Assembly: GCA_029891345.1 (NCBI GenBank)
Contig: CM056995.1
Span: forward strand, 213,355,047 to 213,419,046
Length of the DNA: 64,000 nt
Source of the DNA: Dryococelus australis
Taxonomy: Eukaryota; Arthropoda; Insecta; Phasmatodea; Phasmatidae
Reading direction: 5' to 3'
Shown: positions 5,943 through 64,000 of the stretch, piece by piece
Layout of the letters: each line of letters begins with the position of its first letter
How positions within the stretch are numbered: position 1 is the first letter of the stretch
Program-made: the position numbers and the translations under genes
The notes under the pieces: model-generated
The model's input: only the letters and a program-made list of their open reading frames with translations
Database searches by the model: none
What the model was told of the DNA's origin: nothing

Positions 5943-6409
5943 CAACAAATTTGACCTCCAGCTTTCGGCACCTACTCAAATGAAGAAAACACTGGCCAGC
6001 AAAAAAATTATTGCATCAGCTTGCTTTCTGTAACAGACATACGACCACCAGCCTATCGCTCGCTTTTTCATTTCAAACAATCCTTTGGCTTGCTGCTGTC
6101 TTTCATTTCCAGTTGTTCACACGGGATGCAAAGCAGCAAGCGCATAACAATATTTTTCACACATAACATATGCTTTTCTGAAAATTTTACTGTTCTCACT
6201 TAGATGGTGCTTGAATAAAGTGAGATGTCCACTGCAACATTAATCTTATGTACAGGGAAAAGACACAAAATTAAATCCTAATCATGGCTTTCAAAAGTTC
6301 TTAATTAATGGTGAACAAACTTTAACAGCTGTGTGTATGATGAGCTAGTAAAGGTCCTTCAAGGCTTTACTCTCCTGTTCCGTAATGTCACCATTTAACC
6401 ACACATTAA
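5943..6409. other. No recognisable feature
   Basis: AT-rich unique-looking DNA between the LTR-like region and the first MITE. I see no coding, RNA or repeat signal. Confidence 0.5.
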
Positions 6410-6790
6410 GGCTGTTCACCGTAATGTGAGCGCTTTTGAAATCAATCTTAGAAAATGGGCACACTGTGTGGTATGCACCCAGTAAAGTTGGTAATGGTGG
6501 AAGGAAAGTATTTCCATGTTTAACATTAAATTAAAAGTGTCAGGAAAACATTTGTGAACATTGTTTTGCTGTATGTGTTTTTAATGCGTATACGAGTAAG
6601 AATTGGCAAATTTGTAAAATATTTACTTTCCTAATAATTATACAATTTAATTTGGCTGATGCATGAGTAGAGAGATCAAGCGCATGGCAATTTTAATTGT
6701 ACATATGGTGGAAGAATACATAATGTGCACACAAGTAGATCTTAAGAAAGGTTTTCAAAAGTGCTCAGTTTATCGTGGACTTTAGCAGTC
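6410..6790 (+). mobile_element. MITE family M1, copy 1 (diverged)
   Basis: The left end begins GGCTGTTCACCGTAATGTGA and continues GCGCTTTTGAAA; the right end at about 6752-6780 is the inverted counterpart (TTTTCAAAAGTGCTC then TTTATCGTGGAC). The interior, read on the opposite strand, matches copy 2 at 9427-9834, including a shared block around the TTTACTTTCCTAATAATTA motif and another around ACAAGTAGATCTT. Both TIRs plus the shared interior show a short non-autonomous DNA transposon. The superfamily is unknown; no clear target duplication is visible. Confidence 0.7.
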
Positions 6791-7674: not shown

Positions 7675-8565
7675 AACTTCAGAGGTGTAACACACAAATA
7701 AATACATACATACATACATACACTCACAATTAGGCTACCGCCCGGTGACAAGCTCTCTCACCTATCCTTCACCCAACCAACTACTTTTACACTCCCTTCC
7801 TGAACTTACCAACGCCTCTCACAGATACCAATTCCTCCCTCAAAACATTCCACTCCCTCACAGACCTCACAAGCATGGACTGCCTACCCCGCTCCGTTCT
7901 CCTCCACACCCTCTGAAGCTTCTACTGCTGTTTCCTCTTCCTCTAAACACCCCCTTACTTAGCTTGCAGTGTAGCCCTCCCCATCCTCCCTCTTCATTCA
8001 CCATCCTGTACATCCTGACTAACCTTTCAACTTTCCTCCTGTCCCATTTCTTTATCATCACTAATGGCATATAGTTCCCTTCTTCCTCACCATCCTGCGC
8101 TTGCCTTCTAAACCTACCCTTCTCCCATCTTTCTGCCTTTCTCTGCACCTTTTCCAGTTCTCGCACCTCCACATACGGGTCCCATACTGCTGCAGTATAT
8201 TCTAACATTGGCCGTACCATTGTGCCATACGCCTTCTTCTTCACCTCACAGCTGACTCCCTTCAGCACTCTTCCCAGCATGCCCAGAGCCCTTCTTCCCT
8301 TTGCAGCTACCCTTTCTACCTTTTTTTTCCATCTGAGGTCTCCCTGCAGTACAATCCCTAGATACTTATATTCTGCTGCTTCTTCTATCTCTTGTCCCTC
8401 CTATCTGTACATGTCCCTGCTTATCATCTTCTTCCTTGTGAACCTCACTACCTTAGTTTTTCTTACATTTATCTTCATTTTATTTTTCCTGATCCACAAC
8501 CATATCATATCAATGTATCAATGTCCACCTGCAAATTTCCCCCCCCCCCCTTCCCACTTCAGGTG
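7675..8565 (-). mobile_element. 5'-truncated LINE (CR1/Jockey-like), 3' part of the RT open frame and 3' tail
   Basis: On the minus strand this encodes the C-terminal part of a non-LTR reverse transcriptase. Diagnostic pieces are an EYKYLGIVLQGDLRW block (about 8325-8370) and LEYTAAVWDP followed by LEKVQRKAERW (within 7867-8280), the typical thumb/C-terminal signature of CR1/Jockey-group LINEs (LEYxxxVWDP...E.VQRRA.R). The longest intact frame is 7867-8280. A REWNVLREEL-like C-terminus follows in another frame near 7810-7860, so the gene is frameshifted. The 3' end is a short tetranucleotide tail, (ATGT)n, at about 7700-7722. The element is 5'-truncated as usual for LINEs: endonuclease and most of RT are absent. 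Confidence 0.85.
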
Positions 8566-9426: not shown

Positions 9427-9834
9427 GGCTGTTCACTGTAAAGTGAGCACTTTTGAAAGCTCTGCTAAAGATCTACTTGTATGGACTTTGTGTATACTTC
9501 CCCCATATGTAAAATTGACATTTCCACGGGCCTCATCACGTTGGTCAAGTGAAACTGCGAAAATTATTAGGAAAGTAAATATTTTATAAATTTGCTCATG
9601 TTTTACATTTCGATGTTTGAAATAAAGAGAAGACAAAAGAAATAAGTTAAGTTATCATAAATCATTACCTAACATTTTTTTTTTCAATGTTAAGATATGG
9701 AACTACTTTTCATCACCATTACCCACTTTGCTGAGCGAATGTCACTCAGTGCACCCATTAAAATATATGCAGGCAGGGCAAGTGGCTTTTTTCTAAGGTT
9801 GATTTCAAAAGTGCTCACTTTATCGTGAACAGCC
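9427..9834 (-). mobile_element. MITE family M1, copy 2
   Basis: Ends are near-perfect inverted repeats of about 32 bp: left GGCTGTTCACTGTAAAGTGA plus GCACTTTTGAAA, right the reverse complement of GGCTGTTCACGATAAAGTGA plus GCACTTTTGAAA, two mismatches. It is 408 bp long, in opposite orientation to copy 1, and carries no coding frame of note. Non-autonomous DNA transposon; family not identified. Confidence 0.8.
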
Positions 9835-10830
9835 TTCAAAAACACTGCAGCAAGACAACACAGTAAGATAACCAATCACCAGACACGAACATACCTCCGT
9901 CACGTTGTTAATCCACAATGACAACTCCAGTAAAGTTGGGAAGGCTGTAGTGGGAAAAGTGAGCTGTTTCTACAAGTGAATCTGTGTGGTTTCAAAAGCT
10001 GAGGACTTTGGTTAAAACTTTCACATTAGTTTTCAGTAATTCAACCTACATACGCAACCTGTAAACACAATAAAATACCATTTACGTGGTCAGTGCCATA
10101 TGACAACTAACTCCACCTCACTTAAGACTGTTTAAGAGATAAAAATTCTTTTTAGGTTTTGTGAACATGTTAGTTTCTTGACATCATGATAATGACTAAA
10201 TAAAATTACAAAATCATATGAAAAATAATATTCATTATTTTTTTTTTAGCATAAACAACTGAATTTCAAATTAAAATTCTGATTTGTACACATTTCAAAA
10301 AGATTTTACAACACAAAGTTTGGTTTCAGCTAAATCGTTTACTAAAGTCATAGGAGCGGTACATTGCTATTTCTTTGAAATCTCATATTTGGTTTCGCCT
10401 GCAAATAACAGTTTTAACTTCTTAAAAACTTTGGCTTTAAATTTTACTTCAAAATGTTCCATTTTCCAATAAATGTGAAAGACAGCTAAGTTTTATTTTT
10501 TTTCTGAGTTTTTACATTGTTAACCATTTAGTAATTATGCCAGCAAAATTCCTTCAAAAATGCAAACTTTTTGGAGAACATTACATGATTCTTTTGTCTT
10601 TATCAACAATCGTAAATTTTTTCCTGGCTGTTTTTTTTTACACACGTTTGTGTTCAGAAGTGCGTAATATTTTCAAAATTTCATGTTTATTTGCTAGGAA
10701 ATAAAAAACCTGTTAAACAAATAAACTTATCAAAGATATATGATCAAAATGTATCTGATACTGAGCTGTTCGAGACTGATTATCTGTCAAATAACCCAAT
10801 TGTGTCCAGTGCTGTGTGAATGCCGCTACA
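9835..10830. other. No recognisable feature
   Basis: AT-rich DNA between the second MITE copy and a solitary MITE end. Several poly-T and poly-A runs, no coding signal. Confidence 0.5.

Positions 10831-15796: not shown

Positions 15797-15880
<84 letters not shown>
15797..15880. repeat. (TA)n microsatellite
   Basis: Uninterrupted TA dinucleotide run of about 84 bp following TATCT. Likely polymorphic in length. Confidence 0.97.
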
Positions 15881-25174: not shown

Positions 25175-26469
25175 TGACATGGTGTCATGTGGTCAGATGA
25201 GGATTGGGTTTACGTTAGAGGAGTGGTAAATATAAAATGTTTAAAATGGAAGTTTAGGAATTTTGTGACCCGGGGCACCAGACATTATTCTCCAGAATAA
25301 TGCCAGTGATGTCGGTAGAGCTGACTCGTTGTCTTCAGGGTCATTCGGCGGACGACCACAGTGTAATCCTTCTAGGGGTTGGAAGTACTCCTCTCAAAAT
25401 CATTATATGTTCTTCCTTGTGGCACTGAGGGATATCAGGGCACCCAACACACCCATAAGACACTTTACTTACGTAGCTGTTACATGTAACCATTTAAAAA
25501 ATTAAATGCACAATCTGTATGCTTACAGTAAAATTGGCAGAATAAGGCCTGTACTGTAAACGCCTTGTGGCTACCTGAAATAAATAACAGCTATATTTTG
25601 TGTCACTGCGTAATTTATTTGGTATCACTCTACACACCTCAGTTGAGGTAACATACACTTGCTTCCTTAGTTAAACCCATCAGCAAGGGTTAAACAGAAT
25701 AAAAGACACGTGATCACAATACTTTAAGTTGAACGAATAAAGTCCACCCAGGCAATGCAAGCACTGAGTGGTATGAGGGGTGGAGTCTCGGCGGCAGATA
25801 AAACAACGGTTCTGGTTAATTAACAAAGTCTATTGCTGAAGAAATGATTGTGAAAAGAGTTGATTGCCACCGATTGCACGAAACGGGAGTCACGATGCAA
25901 CGTGCTCCACCCCTCGCAAGACAGATAATGACTAACTTGGAAAAAGCGGCATGCTGGCTGGATTGGCGGACCAGAACCCCACACAACACTACTTTCTAAA
26001 CAATACCCTTGCATAAAAACACTCAGCACTTGCCTTTGGAGATTCCTTCAAGTTCCTAAAATTTCCCCTTGTAAAACTAAATAATGTACATGCATAATAA
26101 CACTATGATGTGACATGAGGATGGTTACATGTGAGAATGAAAAATATGGTACATAAAGAAAAAGATTTCTAAAGAATCCCCTTGGGTATTAAGGCATTTA
26201 ATTGATGTGTTTATGTGTACACATGTCTTGGTGTATCACTTGTGTTGTGTTAAGCTCCTTAGAAACATAAAATGTAAAATGTGGGATCTCCTTTCATATC
26301 ACTGCGCTCAGGTGCTCATTGCACTTGTGTTGCTCTTGTGGCACTACCACTGCAATGCACTGCACCTACGCCACCTGCGGCGTAGAATGTGCACACTCCC
26401 TTTGTTGCTTGGAATCCTTGCTGATTTGGTGCGGAGGACAAACTGACTTTTGGTAGGGAGTACGTGACA
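25175..26469 (-). repeat. 3' LTR of the 25-30 kb Gypsy element
   Basis: The plus strand begins TGACATGGTGTCATG and ends GTGACA, so the minus strand begins TGTCAC. It aligns end to end with 29073-30354. Positions 25621-25845 are identical to the partner. Confidence 0.85.
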
Positions 26470-29072
26470 TGCATCACACACATCCCCCCCCCCCCCCCGA
26501 CAATGCGATACCAATTGCAGCCGCACACATCACTTGCAGCAGAGGCATACCTTGGTTTCTGCTCGGCATTGACGTAATGCATAAGGGGTTCTTCCCGGAC
26601 CCTTATGTTCTGGAACCACCAGCTGCTACTAATGTCCCTTGCGGTCTTGCACTTTATGTGGCGTTGGAACACCCATGCATGTCATACATCCCGTCGGTGG
26701 CTATTTCTTCCGCCATGACCGTCGAAGAGTCCTCGAGTCAACTTACCTACTGTTTCCGCTGTCGCTGCTGCTGTCTTCATGTGCATGCTGTTGTCACTGC
26801 CACTAGCTACCTGGGCAGGCGACTACTGGGGGTGATCGACCATCCTCGGGTGGTCAAGCTGTCGTTGGCACTGGTTCTCTGCTTGCTAATGTGCTTCCCC
26901 CATCTACTGTTTGGGCCGTAATAACAGGCACTCTATAGCCAGATAGGGAACCTTCCCCAGAAATGCTGCACATGGTCAGTGTCCCGGGTCTTGGACGCTG
27001 TCTCTCGTAGCCACTGCACCATCAGACACCTCAGTATCGGACTCCCAATGCTCGCCCTCTAGTGCCATGTTGCCGGGCGACGTCGTGCTTCCTGCATCTG
27101 CTGTTATTTTTCCTGGAGAAGTGCTGATGCACCCTCCTCACTTGTGTTCTCCTCCAGGAGCTCCTCCCCGACATCGCAGTCATGCAGCTCTGGTCCGCTT
27201 GCAACCCCTCACTATGTGCTTCCTGCTCTTCAATTGCAACTTGCTTTCTGCTTGCTAGAGGTGTTGCGAGCACAGTTTCCACTGCATTTCCGCTGTTCCT
27301 ATCACTTGTGCGCGCGCTCGCCTGACACCTGGCGGATATGGCCTCGTCCTATGTCGATGGTGCTTCGGCATCTTTTAGCGGCACTCTTGTAGGAGGTGCC
27401 GCAGAACCTTCCTTCTCTCTCATGTGTGTTCCTTACTTGGTAGGTAGTGTGTCATCGTGGGGTGCTTGGGCTCCGGGTTCGTCTGTGCCGCGGCTGTCTC
27501 CTGGTGACAGATGGATTGCATCCTGATGTGCCCTTATGCATTTTCTTCCCACTCGGATCAGGTAGGTTCTGGATACTATGTCTTTTATGACCTGGTGCGG
27601 CCCTGTCCAGCGTGCAGCGAATCTAGTGCAGAAGTTCTGTCGCACTGCGGACTGCGGATGTGCTTTCAGGTACACCTGTTGACCTGGTCGCAATTCTGGT
27701 GGCAGTCTAATACTTGTGGAGACCCACCCTGCGATGTAGCACTTGTCATTCCACCTGTTCTTTGTTGTTTTTGCTGCGTATTTGCACTGTGCCATGCTGC
27801 CTCCATTACACTCGCCACTTGCATTTAGGGGGCAATTACTTTTGCCAGGTACTTTTAGATTCTGACCTTACAGTACGTCTGGTGGTGTGCATTATGGTAC
27901 ACCATTCAGACACTGGTGGAGGGTGAAGAGAGCTGAAGGCAGGTGTTCTGCCCAGATTGTGAGTAACTCACCCACACAGAGCCGTAGTCACCCCTTCAGA
28001 TCTTGATTGCAGCACTGCATGGGGTCAGCTCTGGGATGGTACATCACTATCTTCAAATGGTACACGCCTCCCCCTTTCTGCGGAATGCACATTTCTTGCC
28101 ACTTGCGACGAGAATTCTGTCCTACTGTCAGTGAGCACCTGTTAAGGGTAACCCCACCCCTCTCCTCCATTAAAAAAACTCTCGTTCTAGCATTTTCACA
28201 ATACTTGTCACTCGTGAGTTGCTCATCGTGTAAGCTTCAGTCCACTGGGAAAAATTTTCCTTTACCACAAGGAGAAACCTTTTCCCCAAGACGTTCCTGG
28301 GTAGGGTCCCATTAAGTCGAGGCTAACGGTCTCGAAGGGCCATCATGGCTGATTCTGCTGAATCCCATCATTCCTGCACTATTTAAAAGTTTGACACTTC
28401 ACACAGTTTTTCACGTATCTCCACGCAACACGTGACAGGCCGGGCCAGAAAAAGTGCAGTTTCACATTCATAAGTGTCTGTTCCGTTCCCGGTTGTCTCG
28501 CTACATGACTGGCATCTGCATGGCAGTCCTGTGTGGTGCGGGCAGGGGTCAACAAATAGCGCACTCTCAATTGTTCCGCTCAGCGTGTGGTGGAGAACGT
28601 GGGAGGAGGAGCAGCCAGATGTTTCTCCTTCTTCTAGTTTCTCCTTCTCGCTCCTTGTCGTGCGGTGTGAACAGGTGGAGGGGAACGATGGCGCGCTCAA
28701 CTCACTCTGTGTCCTTTGCCCCACTGCTGTGATGTTATATTGCTGTCCAAAGATGGCGGCTCCTCGCCGCTTTCTCACCACTACCTCATTGTGCCGAAGT
28801 AATGGCACTGCTAGGCTGTTTTGGGGAACTTTTCTCACTTGGTCACCTGCATACTTCCCAGCATATCCTGGATGTCTGGAAGGCATAACGTCGCTGCCAC
28901 AGAATTCTCTGGTCGCAAGGTTGATCATGTTTCTCCCTCATTGCTGGTATTACAGGAATTGTGAGGTAAAATTTGGAAATATTTGGAAATTTTAGATTTT
29001 TGCAGGTAATTTTGCGGAAAAGTATTTTTCGGACATTCCTAGAGCGATACGCCCCTAAGTTGTGCGACACTT
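26470..29072 (-). pseudogene. Integrase remnant (Gypsy fossil interior)
   Basis: On the minus strand, the zinc-binding region at about 28380-28570 shows FFWPGLSRVAWRYVKNC followed by VKCQ, the H-H-C-C finger of Gypsy integrases. The C-terminal region at 27433-27795 shows RWTGPHQVIKDIVSRTYLIR, the GPH/Y... chromodomain-proximal block of Gypsy integrases. The region between, where the catalytic core would be, is decayed. The tail from about 26500 to 27430 is a low-complexity linker with no domain recognised. It is broken with several breaks. Confidence 0.8.
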
Positions 29073-30354
29073 TGACGTGGTATCATGTCGTCAGTGAAGG
29101 GGTGGGTTTAGGTTAGAGGAACAGTAAATAGAAAATGTTTGAAATGGAAGTTCAGGAATTTTGTTACCCGGGGCACCAAACATATATCTCCAGAATAATA
29201 CCAATGATTTCGGTAGAGCTGACTCGTCATCATGGTCGTTCGATCAACGACCACGACATGATCCTTCCAGGGATTGGAAGTACTCCTCTGAAGATTATTA
29301 TATATTCTTGCTTACTGCACTATAGGACATCAGGACTCCCCACATGCCCGTAAGACACTTTACTTACGTTGCTGTTACATGTGACCTTTTAAAACACTCA
29401 TTGCACTGTCTGTATGCTTACGATAAAATTGGCAGGAGGAGACCTGTACTTTAAAAGCCTTGAGGCTACCTGAAATAAACACCAGCTATATTTTGCGTCA
29501 CTGCATGATTTATTCGGTATCACTCTACACACCTCAGTTGAGGTAACATACACTTGCTTCCTTAGTTAAACCCATCAGCAAGGGTTAAACAGAATAAAAG
29601 ACACGTGATCACAATACTTTAAGTTGAACGAATAAAGTCCACCCAGGCAATGCAAGCACTGAGTGGTATGAGGGGTGGAGTCTCGGCGGCAGATAAAACA
29701 ACGGTTCTGGTTAATTAACAAAGTCTATTGCTGAAGAAATAATTATGCAAAGAGTTGATTGCCACCGATTGCACGAAACGGGAGTCACGATGCAACACGC
29801 TGCACCCCTCGCAAAACTGACTATTACTAACTTCGAAAACGTGGCATGCTGGCCGTTCTTGGCGGGCCAGCACCTCACACGGCACTACTTTTTAAACATC
29901 ACCCTTGCACGAAAACACTTAGCACGTGCCTTTGGAGATTTCCACGCATTTCTAAGATGAACCCTTGTAAAAAAAAAGAACATACATGCATGATAACACT
30001 ATGATGTGAGATGAAGATGGTTACACATGAGAATGAAAAATATGGTATATAAAAAAACATTTCAAAAGAATGTACTAGGGCGTTTAGGCATTTAATTGAT
30101 GTGTTTATGTGTACACATGTCTTGGTGTATCACTTGTGCTGCCGTTAAGCCCTTTAGAAACATCAAATTTTAAATGTAGGATATGCTTTCATATCACTGC
30201 ACGTGGGCGCTCACTGCTCTTGTGTTGCTCTTGTGGCACTACCACTGTGCTGCACCTGCGCCACCTGTGGTGTAGAATGTGCACACTTCCTGCATATCTT
30301 GGAGACCTTGCTGATTTGGTGCGGCGGGCAAACTGACTTCTGGGAGAGGTTACA
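29073..30354 (-). repeat. 5' LTR of the 25-30 kb Gypsy element
   Basis: The plus strand begins TGACGTGGTATCATG and ends GTTACA (minus strand begins TGTAACCTCTCCC). The partner is 25175-26469. Beside its inner edge lies the primer-binding-like site at about 29051-29070. Confidence 0.85.
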
Positions 30355-30470
30355 CGAGACTCACCCTTGCATTTCAGTGCTGCTTCATATCTGCCATATT
30401 CCATGCTAATTGGCTCTCTCAACACCTTGTTGCAAATCACCTAAACCTGTCTTAATTCCTCCCTTTTTAA

Positions 30471-61500: not shown

Positions 61501-64000
61501 AATGGTTATCAGCAATGTTCAACTATGATTCATAGTACACACTGTTGCCAGTAACAAGGCAGAAATGCAGGAGAAGGGAGTAAGTCAATGGTATCATCAA
61601 GTTCAACTGTGACTCTCATAGTCACACTGTGCCATAACAAGGCAGAAATGAGGAGAAGGGAGTAAGGCAATGGTATCACAATGTTAACTTGATCTCATAG
61701 TACACACTGTGCCAGAACAAGGCAGAAATGCAGGGAGAAGGGAGTAAGCAATGGTATCACAAGTTCAACTGTGACTCTCATAGTACACTGTCGCCAGAAC
61801 AAGCAGAAATGCAGGGAGAAGGGAGTAAGCAATGGTATCAGCAATGTTCAACTTGATTCATAGTACACACTGTGCCAGTAACAAGGAGAAATGCAGGAGA
61901 AGGGAGTAAGGCAATGGTATCACAATGTTCAACTTGATTCATAGTACACCTGTAAGTAACAAGGCAGAAATGCAGGAGAAGGGAGTAAGCAATGGTATCA
62001 TAAGTTCAACTTGATTCATAGTCACACTGTGCCAGTAACAAGGCAGAAATGCAGGAGAAGGAGTAAGGCAATGGTATCAGCAAGTTCAACTTGATTCATA
62101 GTACACACTGTGCCAGTAACAAGGCAGAAACAGGAGAAGGGAGTAAGCAATGGTATCACAATGTTCAACTGTGATTCATAGTACACACTGTGCCAGTAAC
62201 AAGGCAGAAATGCAGGGAAGGGAGTAAGGCAATGTATCACAATGTTCAACTATGATTCATAGTACACACTGTGCCAGTAACAAGGCAGAAAGCAGGGAGA
62301 AGGGGTAAGTCAATGTATCACAATGTTCAACTGTGATTTATAGTCACACTGTGCCAGAACAAGGCAAAATGCAGGAGAAGGGAGTAAGGCAATGGTATCA
62401 GCAATGTTCAACTATGATTCATAGTACACACTGTGCAGTAACAAGGCAGAAATGCAGGAGAAGGGAGTAAGCAATGGTATCACAAGTTCAACTTGATTCA
62501 TAGTACACATGTGCCAGTAACAAGGAGAAATGCAGGGAGAAGGGAGTAAGGCAATGGTATCACATGTTCACTTGATTCATAGTACACACTGTGCAGTAAC
62601 AAGAGAAATCAGGAGAAGGGAGTAAGGCAATGGTATCACAAGTTCAACTGTGATCTCATAGTCACACTGTGCCAGTAACAAGCAAATGCAGGAAAGGAGT
62701 AAGCAATGGTATCACAAGTTCAACTTGATTCATAGTACACACTGTTGCCAGTACAAGGAGAAAAGCAGAGAAGGAGTAAGGCAATGGTATCAGCAATGTT
62801 CACTATGATTCATAGTACACCTGTGCCAGTAACAAGGCAGAAAGCAGAAAGGAGTAAGCAATGGTATCACAAGTTCAACTGTGATTAAGTACACACTGTG
62901 CCAGAACAAGCAAAATGCGGAGAAGGAGTAAGGCAATGTTCACAATGTTCAATTGATTCATAGTCACACTGTGCCAGTAACAAGGCAGAAATGCAGAGAA
63001 GGGAGTAGCAATGGTATCACAAGTTCAACTGTGATTATAGTCACACTGTCGCCAGAACAAGGCAAAATCAAGAAGGGAGTAAGGCAATGGTATCACAGTT
63101 AACTTGATTCATGTAACCTGTGCCAGACAAGCAGAATGCAGGAGAAGGAGTAAGGCAATGGTATCACAAGTTCAACTTGATTTGTACACACTGTTCCAGA
63201 ACAAGAGAAATGCAGGAAGGGAGTAAGCAATGTATCACAATTCAACTGGATTCATAGTCACACTGTCCAGTACAAGGAAATGCAGAGAAGGGAGACTGTG
63301 CCAGTAACAAGCAGAAATGCAGGAGAAGGGAGTAAGCAATGGTATCATCAAGTTCAACTATGATTCATAGTACACACTGTTGCCAGTAACAAGGCAGAAA
63401 TGCGGGAGAAGGGAGTAAGGCAATGGTATCACAATGTTCAACTATGATTCTATAGTCACACTGTGCCAGTAACAAGGCAGAAATGCAGGAGAAGGGAGTA
63501 AGGCAATGGTATCATCAATGTTCAACTGTGACTCTCATAGTGCACACTGTCGCCAGTAACAAGGCAAAATGCAGGAGAAGGATAAGAATGGTATCATCAA
63601 GTTCAACTGTGATTCATAGTACACACTGTTGCCAGTAACAAGGCAGAAATGCAGAGAGAAGGGAGTAAGCAATGGTATCATCAATGTTCAACTGTGATTC
63701 ATAGTACACTGTCGCCAGTAACAAGGCAGAAATGCAGGGAGAAGGGAGTAAGTCAATGGTATCATCAAGTTCAACTGTGACTCTCATAGTGCACACTGTC
63801 GCCAGTGCCAGTAACAAGGCAGAAATGCAGGAAAGGGAGTAAGGCAATGGTATCAGCAATGTTCAACTTGATTCATAGTACACACTGTGCCAGTAACAAG
63901 GCAGAAATGCAGGGAAAGGGAGTAAGCAATGGTATCACAATGTTCAACTGTGATTCATAGTACACACTGTCGCCAGTAACAAGGCAGAAATGCAGGGAGA
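58514..64000. repeat. Satellite array, about 87-bp monomer, two main monomer types
   Basis: Tandem units of 85-88 bp built on GTAACAAGGCAGAAATGCAG and GGAGAAGGGAGTAAG repeat from a partial first unit at about 58514 to the window end, some 60 or more copies. Type I has GGCAATGG, ATCAGCAATG and GATTCATAG; type II has GTCAATGG, ATCATCAA(T/C)G and GACTCTCATAG; a few are hybrids. Monomer length is not a multiple of three, so open frames across it are artefacts. The array continues past 64000. Two stretches (about 60.36-60.96 and 61.56-63.34 kb) are dense in one-base losses. Confidence 0.97.

Follow-up and report, generated by a model that had tools for sequence, protein, structure and literature searches.

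Why should the two LTRs of a single decayed retroelement match base for base across 225 bp, when the sequence to either side has drifted apart at 17–18% of sites? The pair lies in a window of 64,000 nucleotides from the stick insect Dryococelus australis (GCA_029891345.1, contig CM056995.1, positions 213,355,047 to 213,419,046 of the forward strand), which is the whole stretch of DNA analyzed here. A first-pass annotation had drawn attention to a gapless match between 25621-25845 and 29516-29740, judged the surrounding LTR sequence by eye to be roughly 15–20% different, and offered LTR–LTR gene conversion, assembly patching or constraint on the segment as explanations. Its coordinates proved exact—225 of 225 positions are identical, gap-free and in register in the pairwise LTR alignment—and the measured flank divergence falls within its estimate. 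Mismatches stand directly outside each end of the tract, at 25620 and 25846, and homology between the LTRs continues on both sides. Among the options named, conversion fits best in terms of tract length, the sharp left edge, the similar divergence of the two flanks and the register; we assign a probability of roughly 0.8 to gene conversion without crossover from one LTR to the other, late in the life of the element.

The host element

The two LTRs were delineated by blastn, which pairs 25175-26456 with 29073-30346 as direct repeats at 85.7% identity. LTR ends follow the TG/CA rule, and with it the inner end of the left LTR was placed by eye at 26482, at the CA before a poly-C run; the last 29 bases of this LTR align poorly, with 13 of 28 sites differing. 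Each LTR is about 1.3 kb long, the interior (26483-29072) spans 2.6 kb, and the LTR copies lie 3.9 kb apart. The poly-G run adjoining the left LTR presumably occupies the position of the polypurine tract. The features of the element, together with the tract and its surroundings, are collected in Table 1.

Table 1 Features of the LTR element and of the identical tract, in window positions
Feature	Position	Strand	Basis
Left LTR (3' LTR of minus-strand element)	25175..26482	-	blastn; inner end set by eye
Right LTR (5' LTR of minus-strand element)	29073..30371	-	blastn; outer end 30371 uncertain
Identical tract, inferred gene-conversion tract	25621..25845	-	alignment, shuffles, change-point search, context-rate test
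Partner copy in other LTR	29516..29740	-	same tests as 25621..25845
Possible ragged right edge of tract	25846..25901 (partner 29741-29796)	-	mismatch spacing
Second identical run, 53 bases	26192..26244 (partner 30086-30138)	-	shuffle P 0.0069, tract removed
Poly-G run on minus strand, adjoining left LTR	26483..26499	-	read directly
Integrase C-terminal end remnant	27433..27864	-	weak SH3_Tf2-1 match, E 0.0023, 18.5 bits, below cut-off 30
Integrase zinc-binding (H2C2) domain remnant	28382..28579	-	Pfam PF17921, E 2.2e-10, 40.9 bits, cut-off 25.5

Paired direct LTRs and an integrase domain in the interior, the latter an H2C2 match above its cut-off, are Ty3/Gypsy-like features, and judged from its sequence the element reads as an old, decayed and shortened remnant of this kind on the minus strand. 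Reverse transcriptase precedes integrase in pol; none was seen in the 8 of 36 interior frames of at least 45 aa that were scanned against Pfam. No target-site duplication occupies a matching position at the expected ends of the element; the shared 4-mers TTTC and CTTG lie close to the ends, not directly at both.

Searches for relatives of the element covered viral and prokaryotic sequence collections, so that an empty result says little about copies of the family. With the integrase piece, no relative was confirmed among 7 pattern-matching stretches from viral contigs and 68 from genome contigs, and a PDB sequence search returned one match that is not meaningful (E 0.64). One IMG/VR contig carrying a 20-base piece of the tract was considered as a further LTR copy and rejected: compared by blastn over 7036 bases, it matches the LTRs over only 20 bases and is therefore taken as chance. 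A second 20-base piece of the tract gave 0 matches in IMG/VR.

Other repeats and candidate retroelement fragments are scattered through the window. On the minus strand, an ORF of 226 aa (2003-2683) resembles, by eye, a coiled coil with a retroelement gag-like region, and matched nine Pfam families, all below their cut-offs; a second minus-strand ORF (7867-8400, 177 aa) resembles by eye the C-terminal portion of LINE reverse transcriptases and has no Pfam match. An inverted repeat pair (6408-6780 and 9431-9836) is about 67–71% identical, a perfect TA repeat of 41 copies occupies 15798-15879, and a satellite array with a unit of about 86–88 bp (about 65 copies) runs from 58516 to the window end at 64000.

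Divergence across the LTR pair

The sequence outside the tract has the appearance of plain decay. To the left (25175-25620), 80 of 443 sites differ, giving a K2P of 0.21; to the right (25902-26463), 94 of 555 differ, giving a K2P of 0.19, a count that omits the 25846-25901 segment with its 3 mismatches in 56 sites. Taken to the likely LTR end (25846-26482), the full right side differs at 106 of 629 sites. Flank identity is thus 82–83%, and the mismatches outside the tract are evenly distributed in 25-site bins, with no overdispersion (variance/mean 0.88, P 0.38).

Against this background the tract stands out. When the mismatches were shuffled 20,000 times across the 1279 ungapped sites, the longest identical stretch to arise was 97 sites, and analytically a run of 225 sites has a probability of about 10^-15.6. 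A change-point search allowing 1 to 8 segments, each of at least 10 sites and scored by BIC, reached its lowest value with three segments (1024.8), the middle one being exactly 25621-25845; four segments were nearly equal (1025.2), the additional boundary lying where the LTR end aligns poorly, while a single segment, representing uniform decay, scored 1073.6. Nor does composition or CpG bias account for the identity. When outside rates specific to base and CpG context are applied, the tract should contain 38.6 or 39.1 mismatches, depending on the reference copy, and has 0; the probability of none is about 10^-18.6, in an alignment that takes in the poorly aligned LTR end and so carries a slightly higher outside rate. 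The identical stretch is therefore longer than background divergence allows by shuffle, BIC and context-rate tests alike, bearing out the earlier judgment that uniform decay could not produce it; the even divergence across the LTRs that would have undone that judgment was not found.

Beyond the right end of the tract, mismatches at 25846, 25850 and 25853 are followed by 48 identical bases (25854-25901), a run that is modestly unusual by shuffling with the tract removed (P 0.024 for a run of at least 47); the probability of a run of at least 48 starting from one given place is about 0.0001. A ragged tract edge at 25846-25901 is possible. Past 25901 there is no gradient, with 11 of the first 50 sites differing, and on the left the nearest 50 sites show somewhat reduced divergence (6 of 50). 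The 53-base run at 26192-26244 may possibly be a small second conversion patch, or chance. Neither the 48-base nor the 53-base run received BIC support as a separate segment in the change-point search.

Probable gene conversion between the LTRs

A single late conversion predicts an in-register tract, flanks of similar divergence and a tract composition that looks no younger than its surroundings, and all three are seen. We infer the following course of events. A Ty3/Gypsy-like element with LTRs of about 1.3 kb would have decayed until the two differed at about 17–18% of sites, whereupon a break in one LTR may have been repaired by homology with the other, 3.9 kb off, as template. Such repair would have copied about 225 bp, or perhaps 281 bp if the ragged right edge is included, and either LTR may have been the donor. 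Resolution without crossover would explain why the element survives as more than a solo LTR.

The timing of such an event can be bounded from the tract itself. The 95% upper bound on its divergence, 0.013, amounts to about 6.6% of the outside value of 0.20; at even rates, the event would therefore be late relative to insertion, within roughly the last 7% of the age of the element. The observed/expected CpG ratio of the tract (0.51) resembles that of the rest of the left LTR (0.46–0.55) and lies below that of the right LTR (0.68–0.71), so the tract bears no mark of youth, although the test is weak because the whole window stands at 0.54.

The dimensions of the tract are in keeping with published examples. 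In yeast, a review reports one study with an average minimum of about 500 bp and most follow-ups at 200–300 bp, and in Chinese hamster conversion tracts of 287–296 bp; it places gene conversion mainly above 80% identity (PMC3924818). At 225 bp, the tract falls inside the 200–300 bp yeast averages and near the Chinese hamster values, with flanks above the approximate 80% mark (PMC3924818). Their identity of 82–83% is nevertheless near the low end for conversion, which counts against this reading.

Conversion between LTRs has itself been described in several genomes. In plants, possible converted regions were found in 25% of LTR pairs, figures that the authors call upper limits; tracts were most often 100–1000 bp, and longer within than between elements (PMC7251063). 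The present case shares with that survey a locally identical segment in a diverged pair, and its 225 bp lie within the plant range, but the plant study used GENECONV, whereas shuffle and change-point tests were applied here against a background divergence of 17–18%. For animal genomes, a camelid study supplies the same signature and inference: in dromedary, evidence of intra-element conversion was reported in 1,886 elements, the classification table there totaling 4,473 LTR elements (PMC8605555). Those camelid elements are mostly ERVs, in contrast to the Ty3/Gypsy-like remnant considered here (PMC8605555). Human LTRs likewise undergo non-allelic conversion among themselves and so serve as conversion substrates, with maximum tracts of 14–450 bp in the HERV case; there, at least 14 different LTR donors contributed to two studied LTRs (PMC4921805), whereas in the present case one element supplies both partners.

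Alternative explanations

The reduced divergence next to the tract, with 6 mismatches over 50 sites to its left and 3 over 56 to its right, means that a single clean event is not the sole reading. A self-sustaining conversion island, in which repeated exchanges have kept the core identical since soon after insertion, carries a small though appreciable share of the probability. Each exchange would preserve local identity for the next while the remainder of the LTR drifted toward the conversion limit, a course to which we give the same modest weight. On this view, earlier exchanges, since overwritten in part, would have left the ragged right edge, the reduced divergence on the left and the 53-bp run. 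The data may fit such repeated exchange and one late event alike.

Somewhat less probable is an artefact of assembly or polishing, whereby one tract was overwritten with the sequence of the other. Conversion tracts are of short-read size, such that reads from paralogous LTRs can be confused, a concern raised in the HERV work (PMC4921805). At 82–83% identity, however, short reads too should be assignable to one LTR or the other, and mixing would not be expected to erase about 39 differences; at most, it should remove a few within a tract already converted. Repeats that are 17–18% different are hard to mistake for one another, so only a gross assembly error should produce such a patch; the window is without N.

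Two further explanations are possible but need more steps than late conversion between the LTRs. That both LTRs were converted from a third, younger family member at another genomic site is quite unlikely: two events would have to share their end points, or LTR–LTR copying would have to follow a single one, and the CpG ratio of the tract (a weak test) is unlike that of a young copy. More doubtful still is the proposal that the LTRs were never identical, the element being a hybrid of two diverged subfamilies that share a conserved core. The lack of an intact target-site duplication at the expected ends might speak for such an origin, but its loss is expected after decay of this extent; moreover, such a core would need to escape mutation in both copies during the decay of the flanks, and mismatches outside the tract are spread evenly, as in plain decay.

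Promoter and polyadenylation signals often sit in the middle of LTRs, where this tract also lies, but constraint from a regulatory element or RNA would have to act on all 225 sites in both copies, and its probability is next to negligible. Structured RNA, tRNA and coding constraint were each considered for the tract and rejected: Rfam gave 0 matches at gathering score across the whole window, ARAGORN (bacterial settings) found 0 tRNAs, the folds are ordinary against shuffles (z -0.47 and -0.74, with 60 of 200 and 49 of 200 shuffles folding at least as well), and stops interrupt the tract in all six reading frames. A bacterial promoter and terminator scan is uninformative for a eukaryotic LTR.

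Implications for LTR pairs

Late conversion between the two LTRs, as preferred here, would make the tract most likely a commonplace result of a known mechanism; published surveys often find conversion tracts in LTR pairs. For dating, however, it calls for caution: the whole-LTR K2P of 0.155, which includes the tract, underestimates the value outside it (0.19–0.21) by about a fifth to a quarter. Standard theory, on which the reading as a conversion island draws, holds that the conversion rate drops with divergence until concerted evolution ends (PMC3924837). If the event is real and late, exchange would have taken place at a flank identity of only about 82–83%, which bears on how long LTR pairs keep exchanging sequence.
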